Positions 25,501 to 30,913 of a stretch of 64,000 nucleotides of DNA are shown piece by piece. Origin of the DNA: Deltaproteobacteria bacterium HGW-Deltaproteobacteria-18. GTDB lineage: Bacteria; Desulfobacterota; Desulfovibrionia; Desulfovibrionales; Desulfomicrobiaceae. Each line of letters begins with the position of its first letter. Within the stretch, counting starts at the first letter, position 1. A program made the position numbers and the translations under genes. The notes under the pieces were generated by a model. That model saw only the letters and a program-made list of their open reading frames with translations, did no database searches and had not been told where the DNA came from. The stretch spans positions 62,001-126,000 of the forward strand of contig PHBE01000003.1 of NCBI GenBank assembly GCA_002841885.1. Direction: 5' to 3'.

Positions 25501-27561
25501 TCAATCTTCTTCTTTCTTGCTGTCGGCGATGACCTGCTCGGCCACGTTGGGCGGGCATTCCTCGTAATGGGCGAACTCCATGGTGAAGGTGCCCTGGCCT
25601 CCGGTCATGGAGCGCAGGTCCGGGGCGTATTTCATCATTTCGGCCATGGGCACGTGAGCCTTAACTTCGGTCACCCCGCCGATGGAGTCGGAGCCCAGGA
25701 CCCGTCCGCGCCGGCTGGAGAGGTCGCCGATGACGTCGCCCATGAACTCGTCGGGAATGAACACGGCCGCGAGCATGATGGGTTCGAGCAGTATCGGGTT
25801 GCACATCTCGACGGCTTTCTTGAAGGCCAGGGAGCCCGCGATCTTGAACGCCATTTCAGAAGAGTCGACGTTGTGGTAGGAGCCGTCGTAAACGGCCACC
25901 TTGAAATCGACCATGGGATAGCCGGCCAGGAATCCGCGTGCAGCCGCTTCCTGGACGCCTTTGTCCACCGCCGGAATGTAGTTGCGCGGAATGGAACCGC
26001 CGACGATCTCGTCAAGGAACTCGTAGCCCGCACTGCGGGCGTTGGGCTCCATGCGGATCCAGCAGTCGCCGAACTGGCCGCGTCCGCCGGACTGTTTCTT
26101 GTGCCGGCCCTGGACCTGGGCCTTGCCCTTGATGGTCTCGCGGTAGGGGATCTTGGGGGTTTTGAGGAGAATGTTGGTCTTGTAGCGGCGCCTGACCTTT
26201 TCCACAGCCAGCTCGATGTGCAGCTGTCCCATGCCGGTGAGCAGCATGTCGCCTGTCTCGTCGTTCCGCACCAGGTGCAGGTTGATGTCCTCGTCCAGAA
26301 GCTTCTGCACCGCCGCGAAGACCTTGTCTTCCTCGCCTTTTTCCTCGGCGGCCAGGGCATAGGAAATGATGGATGGGCTCAAGGCCGGCTTGGGCAGGAT
26401 GAACGGGGCCTTCTCTGCGCACAGGGTGTCGCCGGTGGCCGTGTTCTTGAGTTTGGCCACGGCCACGATGGCTCCGGGTCCGACCTCGTGCTTGCAGGGG
26501 GTCTGTTTTTTGCCTTCCAGAAACAGGATTTGGCCGATCTTTTCCTTTTCGTCCTTGGTTGCGTTGAGGACGCTGGCGTCGGGGGAGAGCACGCCGGAGA
26601 GCACGCGCAGCACGGACAGCTGCCCGGCGAAGGGGTCGGCAATGGTCTTGAAGACAAAAGCGGCAAACGGTGCGTCAGGGCTCGACGGGCGTTCGTTGCC
26701 GTCGGCGTCGAGCCAGGGCTCGTGTTCCAGTGGCGAAGTCATGAGGTTCTGCATGGTCTCAAGGAGCGTGACCGCACCCTTGTTCTGCAAGGCGGCGCCC
26801 GCGCAGACCGGGACCAGCATGCGTGCGGCGATGCCTGCGCGCAGACCGGCGATCATTTCCTCGTCCGTCAGCGAGCCTTCCTCGAGGTATTTTTCCATCA
26901 ACTCTTCGCTGCTTTCGGCGATGTTTTCTACAGCGATTTCACGCGTCATGGTGACTTCGTCGGCCAGGTCTTCAGGCATGTCGATGGGCGTCAGGGCGCC
27001 ATTCTCATCGAAGGCGTAGGCCTTTTCGGCCAGGATATCGACCAGGCCCCGGAAGTCGGCTTCGCTGCCGATGGGCAGATAGAGGAGGACGGGCTTGATG
27101 CCCAGGGTGTCGGACAGGGCCTGATAGGCCATTTGGAAATTTGCACGTTCACGGTCCATCTTGTTGATGAAGACCATGGCCGGGAGCGAGGCCTTGACTG
27201 CTTCGGACCAGATCTTCCTGGTCAGCGGCTTGACCCCGTCGATGGCGTCGATGATCAGGACCACGTTGTCCGCGCCCTGCAGAAGATAGGGAAGATCACC
27301 AATGAAGTTGTTGTCGCCGGGCGTGTCGATGAGAAAATTCAGGTTCTTCTTCCAGGGGAGCTGCGCAAAGCCGGGTTGAATGCTGCCCCTGCGTTTGGTT
27401 TCTTCGGGTTCGTAGTCGAGGACTGTCGAGCCCTCGTCGATCTTGCCCAGCCTGGTAATGGAACCGGCGGCGAACAGCAGCATTTCGGCCACTGAAGTCT
27501 TTCCGGTTCCTCCATGCCCTATCAGGGCGAAAGTCCTCTGTTTTTGAAGTTGATCCTGCAT
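25501..27561 (-). CDS. EF-G-like translational GTPase (paralogue family)
   Basis: Translational GTPase of 686 residues with EF-G domain order: G domain (1-275), domain II, III, IV and V. GTPase motifs are GHGGTGKTS (P-loop), DTPGDNNF (G3) and NKMD (G4). The switch I region has RRGSIQPG instead of the canonical RGITI, as in the EF-G-like/EF-G-II group. The second half has GMGQLHIELAVEKV and RGFLAGYPMVDFKVAVYDG. It is not beside rpsL/rpsG/tufA, so it is probably not the main EF-G. The role may be ribosome recycling or stress translation; that is inference. Confidence 0.88.
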   Translation of the reverse strand: MQDQLQKQRTFALIGHGGTGKTSVAEMLLFAAGSITRLGKIDEGSTVLDYEPEETKRRGSIQPGFAQLPWKKNLNFLIDTPGDNNFIGDLPYLLQGADNVVLIIDAIDGVKPLTRKIWSEAVKASLPAMVFINKMDRERANFQMAYQALSDTLGIKPVLLYLPIGSEADFRGLVDILAEKAYAFDENGALTPIDMPEDLADEVTMTREIAVENIAESSEELMEKYLEEGSLTDEEMIAGLRAGIAARMLVPVCAGAALQNKGAVTLLETMQNLMTSPLEHEPWLDADGNERPSSPDAPFAAFVFKTIADPFAGQLSVLRVLSGVLSPDASVLNATKDEKEKIGQILFLEGKKQTPCKHEVGPGAIVAVAKLKNTATGDTLCAEKAPFILPKPALSPSIISYALAAEEKGEEDKVFAAVQKLLDEDINLHLVRNDETGDMLLTGMGQLHIELAVEKVRRRYKTNILLKTPKIPYRETIKGKAQVQGRHKKQSGGRGQFGDCWIRMEPNARSAGYEFLDEIVGGSIPRNYIPAVDKGVQEAAARGFLAGYPMVDFKVAVYDGSYHNVDSSEMAFKIAGSLAFKKAVEMCNPILLEPIMLAAVFIPDEFMGDVIGDLSSRRGRVLGSDSIGGVTEVKAHVPMAEMMKYAPDLRSMTGGQGTFTMEFAHYEECPPNVAEQVIADSKKEED

Positions 27562-27828
27562 ACAGCCCCCTTATGCAAAGTATTACGCAACCATATGGCT
27601 ACAGGGTATAAGATCGTTCCAGTCTTTCATAATGATCGACGGGAATTCGCTTGCAAAAGAGAAGAAATTGGATGAAAGTCCCACGCTCTAAGTCCCCGAG
27701 CGCTTGTAAACCGCCTGCTATCCTGAACTTTTTCAAGAAATACCCCTATAGAGAGGGGTCTTGGAAGTTGTCAAGAGCAATGGGATTTTAAGTGCTGCGT
27801 AATTCTTCAAAATTGTTGAGAGAAAATC
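27562..27828. other. Divergent intergenic region with hairpin
   Basis: 267 bp between the EF-G-like gene (minus) and the ParB-like gene (plus), AT-richer than its surroundings. It contains an inverted repeat at 27734-27763: outer CAAGA/TCTTG and inner ACCCCT/AGGGGT. No strong promoter is recognised. TTGTCA (27768-27773) and TTATGA-16-TATACC on the minus strand are weak candidates. Confidence 0.4.
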
Positions 27829-28806
27829 ATGAACACGGTCGATTCACAGCCCCTGGACCCTGCATCCGCCACGCTCCTGCGTTGCCGTGCCGAGAATATG
27901 GATGCCGATGGGCCCTGGCTTTTCTGGTCCGCTCCGCCGTCCCCGACCTTGCGCCGCAGCCTGAAAGACCACGGACAGCTCGTGCCCGTGCTGGTCGATG
28001 CCGCAGGCGCACGGCCCGTGCTCGTTGCGGGTGCGGCCCGGGTTGCCGCCCTGGCGGAGCTTGGCCGTGAGATTCTGTGCCTGGACCTTGGTGCCCTCGG
28101 CGCAGAGGCCAGAGGACTGACCTATGTGCAGTCCAATGCCGGTGCGGAGTTAACCGACGGGCAGCTCGTTCTGGCCCTGCGCTACTTCAACGCCCTGTCG
28201 GACGTGAACATGGCGCGGGTGCTTGAGGCGCTCGGCTTTGAAGCGCGTTCCAAGAAGATGCGCCTGGTCCGCGCCTGGCTGACGCTGCCTGCGCGCTGGG
28301 ATGCGTTTCTGGGCACGGGCGCTGTGCCCCTGGCTTGCGCGGACGTGCTGGAAGCATTTGCCCCTGAAGATCTTGAGGCCCTTGAGGCGCTCTTTGCCTC
28401 GCTCTTCTGGTCACGCGGGAACGCGGTCAACGTGCTGACGTGGATTCGCGAGGTCTGTGCCCGTGACGGTGTTTCCGTGGCAAAAGTGCTGGAGGGCGCG
28501 GGTTTGAGAGAGATTCTGGCTGCCGGTCTTTCGCCCAAGGACGCCATGACCCGCATCATTCACGAGGTACGCCTGCAGCGCTACCCGGTACTGTCGGACA
28601 TGGAGCGCGAGTTTGTCGACACCGCCCGCCGGGTCTCGGCCGGAACGCGTTGGCGGGTGGTCCAGCCGGACGTGTTCGAGAGCAACGCCGTGGAACTGAG
28701 CGTGCGCCTGACGAGCCCGGCCGATCTGCACGCTGCCAGCGCTGAACTTGCCCGCATCGCGGTCCGGGAAGATCTGGGCGGCCTTTTTCCTTTGGGGGAC
28801 AAATGA
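27829..28806 (+). CDS. ParB-like (Srx-fold) protein, function unknown
   Basis: 325 residues. The N-terminal part (about 15-90) resembles the ParB/sulfiredoxin fold: LRRSLKDHGQLVPVLVD, then PVLVAGAARVAALAELG. The GERR nucleotide-binding signature of chromosomal ParB is replaced by GAAR. The remaining ~230 residues are mostly helical (LSDVNMARVLEALGF looks like a helix-turn-helix), and I do not recognise them. The stop TGA overlaps the ATG of the radical SAM gene (ATGA), so the two are translationally coupled. A role in DNA binding or in guiding the partner is inference. It is not beside parA. Confidence 0.7.
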   Translation: MNTVDSQPLDPASATLLRCRAENMDADGPWLFWSAPPSPTLRRSLKDHGQLVPVLVDAAGARPVLVAGAARVAALAELGREILCLDLGALGAEARGLTYVQSNAGAELTDGQLVLALRYFNALSDVNMARVLEALGFEARSKKMRLVRAWLTLPARWDAFLGTGAVPLACADVLEAFAPEDLEALEALFASLFWSRGNAVNVLTWIREVCARDGVSVAKVLEGAGLREILAAGLSPKDAMTRIIHEVRLQRYPVLSDMEREFVDTARRVSAGTRWRVVQPDVFESNAVELSVRLTSPADLHAASAELARIAVREDLGGLFPLGDK

Positions 28807-29909
28807 CGGCCCTGCCTACCTATCTGCAGGGCATCAGCCGGGTTGTGGTCGATGCGGCCGTGGCCGGTTCCCCCGTGGCGCAGCGCGTGCGTCAGAGGTT
28901 GCCCCACCTGACGGCGGAAGTACTGGACGAGGGCGAAACCCTGTCCTCAGGGCTGGCGCGTGAGGATATCCTTTACCTGAAGCGGTACCGGGGTCGTTTT
29001 TTGCGTCATTGCCCCGGCACCAGCCATTATCGTTGCTGCGGATACCAGATCGTGCATATCGGTGAAAATTGCCCGCTTCGCTGCTCGTATTGCATTTTGC
29101 AGGCCTATTTTCAGGACCGCGTGCTCAAGGTCTGGGCCAACCAGGACGACCTGTGGCAGGAGCTGGACCAGTCCTTCAGCGCAAACCCTGATCGCCGCTA
29201 CCGGGTCGGTACCGGGGAATTCACCGATTCATTGGTGCTTGAGGCCCTGACCGGCTATAGCCGGGATCTGATCGAATTTCTGGGGAGCTATCCGCAGGTC
29301 TGCCTTGAACTCAAGTCCAAGGTGGTGGACCTGTCCTGGATGGACGTTGTCCGCGATCCCTCAAGGGTCCTTCCGGCCTGGTCCATGAACGCACCTGCCA
29401 TAGCAGAGCACGAGGAACAGGGCGAGTGCGCGAGCCTGGAAGAGCGCCTCACCGCAGCACGGACCTGCGCCCGGGCGGGTTTTCGGGTCTGCCTGCATTT
29501 TGACCCCATGATCCATTTTCCCGGCTGGCAGGAAGGCTACGCCCGCACGGTGGAGATGATCTTCGACCATCTGCGCCCCGAGGAGATCGCCTATGTGAGC
29601 ATGGGCTCTTTTCGACACATGCCGGACCTGAAGCGCTGCATCATCGAGAATTTTCCCGGTTCGAGCTACATCCATGGGGAGTTCATCACCGGGATCGACG
29701 GCAAGCAGCGTCTGTTGCGGCCCTTGCGGGTCGAGCAGTTCCGCTTCCTGGCCGACGCGTTGCGCCGGGGCGGGCTCGATCGGCAGCTCTATCTGTGCAT
29801 GGAGTCGGACGAAGTCTGGCAGGCGGTACTTGACCGCACGCCCTCGGACCTGGGCGGTTTATACAGGCATCTGATGGCGCAGGCTTTTGGTGATGGAGGG
29901 AAAGAGTAA
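28803..29909 (+). CDS. Spore photoproduct lyase-like radical SAM protein
   Basis: 368 residues of the SplB/COG1533 family. The radical SAM cluster is C90-P-L-R-C94-S-Y-C97, at the same residue numbers as in Bacillus SPL. C70, C78 and C79 lie before it. RVGTGEFTDSLVLEALT aligns with the SPL stretch that carries the essential Cys141, but here the position reads EFTDSL, with no Cys. It is therefore unlikely to be a standard spore photoproduct lyase; no sporulation genes are seen here. It is coupled by a 4-bp overlap to a ParB-like protein. Confidence 0.8.
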   Translation: MTALPTYLQGISRVVVDAAVAGSPVAQRVRQRLPHLTAEVLDEGETLSSGLAREDILYLKRYRGRFLRHCPGTSHYRCCGYQIVHIGENCPLRCSYCILQAYFQDRVLKVWANQDDLWQELDQSFSANPDRRYRVGTGEFTDSLVLEALTGYSRDLIEFLGSYPQVCLELKSKVVDLSWMDVVRDPSRVLPAWSMNAPAIAEHEEQGECASLEERLTAARTCARAGFRVCLHFDPMIHFPGWQEGYARTVEMIFDHLRPEEIAYVSMGSFRHMPDLKRCIIENFPGSSYIHGEFITGIDGKQRLLRPLRVEQFRFLADALRRGGLDRQLYLCMESDEVWQAVLDRTPSDLGGLYRHLMAQAFGDGGKE

Positions 29910-30367
29910 GGGACTGTCAGCCTGTGAGTATTTTCAATTTGCGGGACACGGTCCGGTCCCGCCATGGCTATCCAAGCCCTGTTCTCGGGGGTGGCATTGT
30001 ACGGCCGCGATCCGGGTTGGGCCGGGCAAGGGCCGCCGAAACTCCTTCTCCGGCCTCGTAGAGTCGAATCGTTGCGTGCAGGGCGTTATGTCTGGGTGGT
30101 TCGGTTGGCAACGATTCAACAAACGATGCCAGGCTCAGTCAAACAGTCGGCGCCCCTAGCCCGGCCCAACCCGGCCCGCTGGGAAGACGCATGAATGGTC
30201 GGTTTTTTCGAGTTGGCCTGACGTTGGGTGCGAAGTCATTGCGAGAAGCCAGGCTCTGCGTGGGAGTCTTCGACGCGGCAATCCACGCTTCCGATCTCTG
30301 GGGCGGCACTGTGCGGCCGCGAGCCGGATTGGACCGGGCGAGGTCCGCATGAGCTCCTGGAAGGCTC
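29910..30367. repeat. Gene-free region with nested inverted and direct repeats
   Basis: 458 bp without a credible gene. Three layers are visible. A 21-bp inverted repeat, 20 of 21 matching, lies at 30012-30032 and 30154-30174. Inside it a perfect 10-bp inverted repeat GAATCGTTGC/GCAACGATTC lies at 30066-30075 and 30108-30117. A direct repeat of about 65-85 bp (29982-30055 versus 30294-30357) shares GGCGGCACTGTGCGGCCGCG-like sequence at roughly 80% identity. GTCATTGCGAG at 30235 and GCGGCAATCC at 30275 resemble the widespread REP-like bacterial repeat. It could be a degenerate MITE/REP cluster. Confidence 0.6.
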
Positions 30368-30913
30368 TCAGTCTGCTGCGGGCTGCGATTTCATGATGCC
30401 GCCCAGATCCAGATTCATGTTTTTTATGCAGCTGTCTTTAAGATGGCAGCGTTCACACCCGTAGCGGTGAGGGTAGGGGGTGATGGTCGCGTATTTGCGG
30501 TCCAAGGCTCCTGAATCCTGCAGGTTCAGACCAATTTTTTCAAGCGTCCGGCACAGTGGCTTGGTTGGAACCGGAACCGGCGCGCATTGCTTTTCTCCCA
30601 GTTCAGGCATCAGCGCCTTCAAGGTCCCCATGATCATGGTCTGGGCGATGGCCTCGTGCTTGAATCCTTCCGACGGGGACTGCTTCCAGATTTCGTCGAC
30701 CTGGTCCTCCACCTCGCTTTCAAGAAATACGACTACATGTTCCTTGCGGTCACCAAGCTTGTAGACCTTGAGAAGGGGAAGCCATTTTTCCCAGACGTCG
30801 AGCACGGAGAGCATGTCGCGCGGGCCGAGTTCGTCGATCTGGGAGAGGAAAAGGAACGTGGGAAAATCAAACTCCGGCTGCACCGGCAGTTGGGTTATGG
30901 ACAAAATCTTCAT
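30368..30913 (-). CDS. Conserved hypothetical protein with C-terminal Cys motif
   Basis: 181 residues; I do not recognise the family. The N-terminal part is mixed alpha/beta without signal peptide or membrane helix. Near the C-terminus is GCERCHLKDSC (C-x2-C-x5-C), which with C-x residues at about 108 and 118 could bind zinc or an Fe-S cluster. Codon use is like its neighbours. It stands 90 bp downstream of the PilZ-LuxR gene on the same strand, so it may be its cotranscribed partner or target. Confidence 0.7.
   Translation of the reverse strand: MKILSITQLPVQPEFDFPTFLFLSQIDELGPRDMLSVLDVWEKWLPLLKVYKLGDRKEHVVVFLESEVEDQVDEIWKQSPSEGFKHEAIAQTMIMGTLKALMPELGEKQCAPVPVPTKPLCRTLEKIGLNLQDSGALDRKYATITPYPHRYGCERCHLKDSCIKNMNLDLGGIMKSQPAAD

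Follow-up and report, generated by a model that had tools for sequence, protein, structure and literature searches.

A predicted two-protein system of a spore photoproduct lyase-like radical SAM protein and a dedicated partner protein in Deltaproteobacteria

Spore photoproduct lyase (SPL, or SplB; PF20903, TIGR04070; PDB 4fhc-4fhg, 4rh0, and 4k9r) depends on an essential cysteine, C141(Bs)/C140(Gt), whose thiol is the hydrogen donor to the thymine allylic radical, and on a tyrosine, Y99(Bs)/Y98(Gt), that relays hydrogen to SAM (PMC3742179). Two families of SPL-related radical SAM proteins, lyase_spl_fam (TIGR03886) and rSAM_mob_pairB (TIGR04470), are of unknown function. In the ParB superfamily, CTP hydrolysis by Bacillus subtilis ParB requires E78 of the GERR motif and E111 of the ENLQR motif, and its binding is disturbed in the G77S and R80A variants, whereas PadC of Myxococcus xanthus, which carries F348 in the place of E78, binds CTP without hydrolysing it (PMC8494293). 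The open-access literature searched, with subscription papers and preprints mostly outside its scope, contained no description of a radical SAM protein, SPL-like or otherwise, combined with ParB in a relevant sense. The catalytic fold of the system described here is already known, and its pairing, its partner domain, and its active-site pattern appear to be undescribed.

The window, a stretch of 64,000 nucleotides from contig PHBE01000003.1 of Deltaproteobacteria bacterium HGW-Deltaproteobacteria-18 (Desulfomicrobiaceae), contains two genes that encode such a pair (Table 1). Both open reading frames were found at the positions given by an earlier sequence-only reading and share the ATGA that it had described. 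As it had also claimed, the pair stands isolated on the plus strand, since the nearest genes on either side, an EF-G-like gene (25501-27561) and an open reading frame (30368-30913), lie on the minus strand. The claim of a non-sporulating host is consistent with a search for Spo0A, which detected none in the source genome and was positive for the B. subtilis control. Gene 2 is present in a single copy in this genome. The divergent intergenic region of 267 bp before gene 1 (27562-27828) is unusually conserved throughout the genus, for example at CTTGCAAAAGAGAAGAAATTGGATGAAAG, and a search upstream of gene 1 for an inverted repeat or a consensus promoter was negative. The non-coding sequence after gene 2 (29990-30345) contains three copies of CCGG[G/A]TTGG[G/A]CCGGGC (30012-30027, plus strand; 30159-30174, minus strand; 30324-30339, plus strand), a clustering that is not expected by chance; six further copies with at most one mismatch occur elsewhere in the genome, and those after gene 2 possibly represent a small repeat element.

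Table 1. Features of the gene pair, with positions counted from the first nucleotide of the window.
Feature	Position	Strand	Basis or remark
Gene 1, 325 aa, partner protein with ParB-like N-terminal module, helical middle region, and novel C-terminal domain	27829..28806	+	
Putative ParB_N-type CTP module, ~residues 14-105	27868..28143	+	degenerate in window copy
GAAR, residues 68-71, replacing GERR	28030..28041	+	B. subtilis ParB G77 and R80 kept, E78 lost family-wide
C-terminal partner domain, ~residues 165-322	28321..28794	+	near one-to-one with gene 2; no Pfam/PDB relative
R251-x-P253, most conserved partner-domain motif	28579..28587	+	P invariant
F283-E284, second conserved motif	28675..28680	+	E invariant in alignment A3, >=90% in A5
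ATGA overlap, end of gene 1 and start of gene 2	28803..28806	+	
Gene 2, SPL-like radical SAM protein, 368 aa	28803..29909	+	PF20903, Foldseek SPL, AlphaFold2
C70-P-G-T-x-x-Y76-x-C78-C79, invariant extra cysteines	29010..29039	+	alignment; C70 aligns with SPL residue 76
C90-x3-C94-x2-C97, radical SAM cluster motif, with Y96 kept and I98 (SPL Y98 lost)	29070..29093	+	sequence, active-site census
G136-T-G-E139-F-T-D-S, E139 in place of SPL hydrogen donor C140	29208..29231	+	SPL alignment, census
C332 in YLCME, invariant C-terminal cysteine	29796..29798	+	census

The distribution of the two genes was surveyed in 297 genomes of one phylum. Gene 2 was detected in 183 of these, in 171 at full strength (E of about 1e-25 or better), and it was present in 22/22 searched family members. 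Matches to the gene 1 profile split at an E of about 1e-25, with members of the family below this value and ordinary ParB proteins making up the rest. Both genes occurred together in 160 genomes when the full gene 1 profile was used, gene 2 alone in 11, gene 1 alone in five, and neither in 121. The association was closer for the C-terminal domain of gene 1 (both 164, gene 2 only seven, domain only four, neither 122; Fisher p 8e-69, relatedness ignored). In three of the domain-only genomes, the contig breaks off at the partner gene, on the very side on which gene 2 is to be expected, and in the fourth gene 2 is present but truncated. Four of the genomes with gene 2 only are incomplete (80-89%), a fifth has half of gene 1 at a contig edge, a sixth has a partner that is accepted when the full-length profile of gene 1 is used, and the last shows a weak partner-domain match. 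Because Fisher p-values ignore relatedness, the gene 2 tree and the joint absences provide the better argument: by our reading of the survey, about 11 families have members without either gene and other members with both. Judged from these profile searches, the pair is a probable two-protein system that occurs in over half of the phylum genomes sampled, with the partner essentially wherever the enzyme is. The dedicated recognition partner that the sequence-only reading had guessed for a DNA- or protein-modifying radical SAM enzyme is thereby supported as far as a dedicated two-gene system is concerned, and the DNA substrate is still a guess. The 80 best matches in the genome collection all appear deltaproteobacterial; weaker relatives may occur outside the phylum, and an SPL-like protein is also present in Thermotoga maritima. 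A mobile or defence system was rejected, as no phage or viral relatives were found at useful similarity, plasmid matches were distant (22-30% identity only), and PADLOC returned no match. A partition system was ruled out by the phyletic pattern and the versions of the partner that lack ParB.

Gene 1 adjoins gene 2 in 50 of the 80 named loci, spread over many lineages, so the adjacency in deltaproteobacteria that the sequence-only reading proposed to look for is indeed conserved; homologues of the two genes are not usually unlinked, and the unlinked genomes still carry both. All linked cases are on the same strand (94/94), the partner is directly upstream in nearly all of them, and the stop codon of gene 1 falls between -60 and +150 nt from the point where the gene 2 domain begins in 82/94. 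Linkage changes at least six times on well-supported branches of the gene 2 tree, or 10 times by parsimony, and the unlinked lineages retain both genes, which in complete genomes (four named examples) are far apart. Such an arrangement goes far beyond what chance would produce. In the neighbour clusters inspected, no family of parA-like genes was prominent, which agrees, as does the lack of Spo0A in the source genome, with a pair that occurs in many lineages outside a parA or spore context. Genes that recur near gene 2 encode SNase, MiaB, SSB, and EF-G, and purC is a frequent upstream neighbour of gene 1 (25 loci, cluster 3); in the loci inspected, these neighbours did not indicate a common pathway. 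Other orders, too, often have the EF-G paralog close to the pair, but this gene was matched in 198/198 sampled genomes with or without the pair, so that the synteny is probably neutral and a functional link was rejected. In three loci of family f12, gene 2 is unlinked from its partner and followed by a PP-loop protein (cluster 26) that resembles, as judged by eye from its sequence, thiolation enzymes of the MnmA/ThiI type. Three apparent in-frame fusions of gene 1 and gene 2 were set aside: one is an artefact of masked bases, one lies at the edge of a contig in just one MAG, and the third, a weak partner-domain match (E 7.6e-4) ahead of gene 2 in one open reading frame, belongs to the last of the gene-2-only genomes described above and was not counted as evidence.

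The sequence-only reading had taken a ParB-like protein to be the partner, and this has to be revised. The ParB_N part is absent from the partner protein in five families, where 12 genomes have just the C-terminal domain next to gene 2 (four in f40, five in f60, and one each in f45, f73, and f79), at no fewer than two places on the gene 2 tree. In most of these the domain forms an open reading frame of 175-200 codons upstream of gene 2; in three, the open frame is longer, with only the C-terminal domain recognised in it. The ParB module is therefore common but optional, and the conserved partner of gene 2 is the C-terminal domain, the ParB part being dispensable. This domain, which tracks the enzyme, matched no Pfam family and gave no convincing match to a solved natural protein.

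The ParB resemblance of gene 1 is made secure by its family members, since the window copy alone is very weak. The latter had no Pfam match at E<0.1 (best weak matches, E 0.07-0.24), whereas ParB_N was matched by 22 of 32 relatives, and the family profile matched Noc/ParB structures over the N-terminal half, with an E of 2.7e-23 to Noc. The AlphaFold2 model of gene 1 (mean pLDDT 93.6) gave only partial Foldseek matches, to structures of ParB, Noc, and KorB. The ParB-like N-terminus with a modified GERR motif described earlier is thus supported by the family and by the GAAR of the window copy, although this copy itself is hardly recognised. All 39 family rows with a residue at these positions retain G77, and 38 of them retain R80. 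At the position of E78, the family has mostly F (17) or Y (10), otherwise A, H, S, or R; Glu occurs there in none of 40 sequences, and the position of E111 is mostly D or S. The retained G77 and R80, together with the loss of E78, mostly to Phe or Tyr as in PadC (PMC8494293), suggest that members of the gene 1 family bind CTP and do not hydrolyse it. The module of the window copy is degenerate, with GAAR and without ENxxR, so CTP binding may have been lost too in this order. In its middle part, gene 1 had no conserved recognition-helix residues in the alignment census, an argument against sequence-specific DNA binding. At the level of the family, gene 1 shares the ParB_N fold and the G and R of GERR with PadC, Noc, KorB, and ParB, but its module is fused to a novel C-terminal domain and associated with a radical SAM enzyme, not with ParA or parS.

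In Foldseek, the AlphaFold2 model of gene 2 (mean pLDDT 91.6) had solved SPL structures as its top matches, far ahead of the others (E of about 1e-20; query TM-score 0.73-0.75, target TM-score 0.78-0.81); the list that follows them includes radical SAM enzymes modifying peptides or proteins. Its score against PF20903 was 62.5 bits, above the gathering cut-off of 27. The radical SAM cluster is complete, as had been claimed, and CxxxCxxC was found in 55/55 sequences of the family, on a partial TIM barrel by fold match. Y96 and the cluster cysteines are invariant, as are K173 and R271, which correspond to SPL K174 and R273 when positions are counted along the SPL alignment. With the SPL fold and an intact 4Fe-4S motif, gene 2 is the predicted catalytic subunit. 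The residues that define SPL chemistry, on the other hand, are replaced. Glu occupies the position of C140 in 54/55 sequences, and the position of Y98 is Ile in 51/55 and Ile, Val, or Phe in all 55, never Tyr. C70, C78, C79, and C332 were each found in 55/55 sequences of the active-site census. Counted along the alignment, C70 coincides with chain position 103, that is, residue 76 of 4rh0, the structure of SPL S76C/C140A, a double mutant in which repair is reportedly restored via rerouted hydrogen transfer. Gene 2 also differs from SPL in its extra CC motif, its C-terminal Cys, its obligate partner protein, and its non-sporulating hosts. The protein is thus SPL-like in fold and family, as the sequence-only reading had it, but it lacks the SPL catalytic cysteine, and SPL activity should not be assumed; by these replacements, gene 2 has the SPL fold yet is predicted not to be an SPL. 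Its scores against the other SPL-related families were 25.9 bits for TIGR03886 (cut-off 437.55) and 19.4 bits for TIGR04470 (cut-off 410). A plasmid-borne lyase_spl_fam relative, the one locus inspected, had no similar annotated partner among its adjacent genes. In some genomes (four named cases), another SPL-like gene is located apart from the pair.

With a probability of about one half, the pair constitutes a two-protein radical SAM enzyme, in which gene 2 is catalytic and gene 1 is a dedicated docking or targeting subunit that usually carries a CTP-responsive module. Gene 2 would generate the 5'-deoxyadenosyl radical and take a hydrogen atom from the substrate. The hydrogen atom would be given back by C70, possibly assisted by C78/C79/C332; these four cysteines could instead be ligands of an auxiliary Fe-S cluster. 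The C-terminal domain of gene 1 would dock on the radical SAM subunit and present or select the substrate. The ParB module would bind CTP without hydrolysis, like PadC, and would switch the oligomerisation or DNA loading of the complex. The substrate may be a nucleic-acid base, undergoing lesion reversal or modification; a nucleic acid is the favoured guess in view of the descent from SPL and of a partner that is ParB-like. Tentative, and rather doubtful as a whole, is the fuller version of a CTP-gated radical enzyme, in which an SPL-derived radical SAM protein that repairs or modifies nucleic acid relies on a non-hydrolysing ParB-type module for its loading or switching, C70 replaces C140 as a relocated thiol hydrogen donor, and the docking domain is new and phylum-wide.

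It is unlikely that gene 2 instead modifies a protein or peptide, with the partner domain either recognising the substrate, as the RRE does in RiPP enzymes, or being the substrate itself. Dedicated recognition domains are common among radical SAM enzymes, and this explanation also fits the existence of the C-terminal domain as a small separate protein in five families and the enzymes acting on peptides and proteins that come after SPL in Foldseek. SPL, however, is by far the best relative in both structure and sequence; moreover, gene 1 had no RRE match in Foldseek, and no small precursor gene was seen beside the pair in the loci inspected. Quite improbable is an auxiliary Fe-S enzyme of cofactor or metabolite biosynthesis, in which C70, C78, C79, and C332 hold a further 4Fe-4S cluster and gene 1 serves as a subunit for assembly or regulation. 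All four cysteines are invariant and the presence/absence pattern resembles that of a metabolic trait, but C70 falls on the SPL substrate-site position 76, and apart from the frequent upstream purC, a housekeeping gene that could otherwise favour this reading, no conserved biosynthetic neighbours were found. A genuine spore photoproduct lyase of vegetative cells is very unlikely: the SPL equivalog TIGR04070 gave 64.3 bits, far below its cut-off of 400, none of 118 phylum genomes was above that cut-off, C140 and Y98 are lost, and the source genome has no Spo0A, even though the fold and the PF20903 score agree with it. That a ParB-family partition or regulatory gene lies beside an unrelated radical SAM gene by coincidence, for which the ParB_N homology might speak, can practically be dismissed given the near one-to-one co-occurrence even when unlinked, the five families without the ParB part, and a second ParB match of canonical strength in the same genome.

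The preferred reading of a radical SAM enzyme with a dedicated partner subunit has consequences at several levels. The natural pattern of C140 to Glu, Y98 to Ile, and position 76 to Cys resembles the laboratory SPL variant (PDB 4rh0), which makes the mechanism directly testable. If the CTP module works, a ParB CTP switch would be tied to radical chemistry, and we know of no earlier case of such a link. If real, the pair would represent a radical SAM system of unknown reaction that extends across the phylum and employs a partner domain matching no family.
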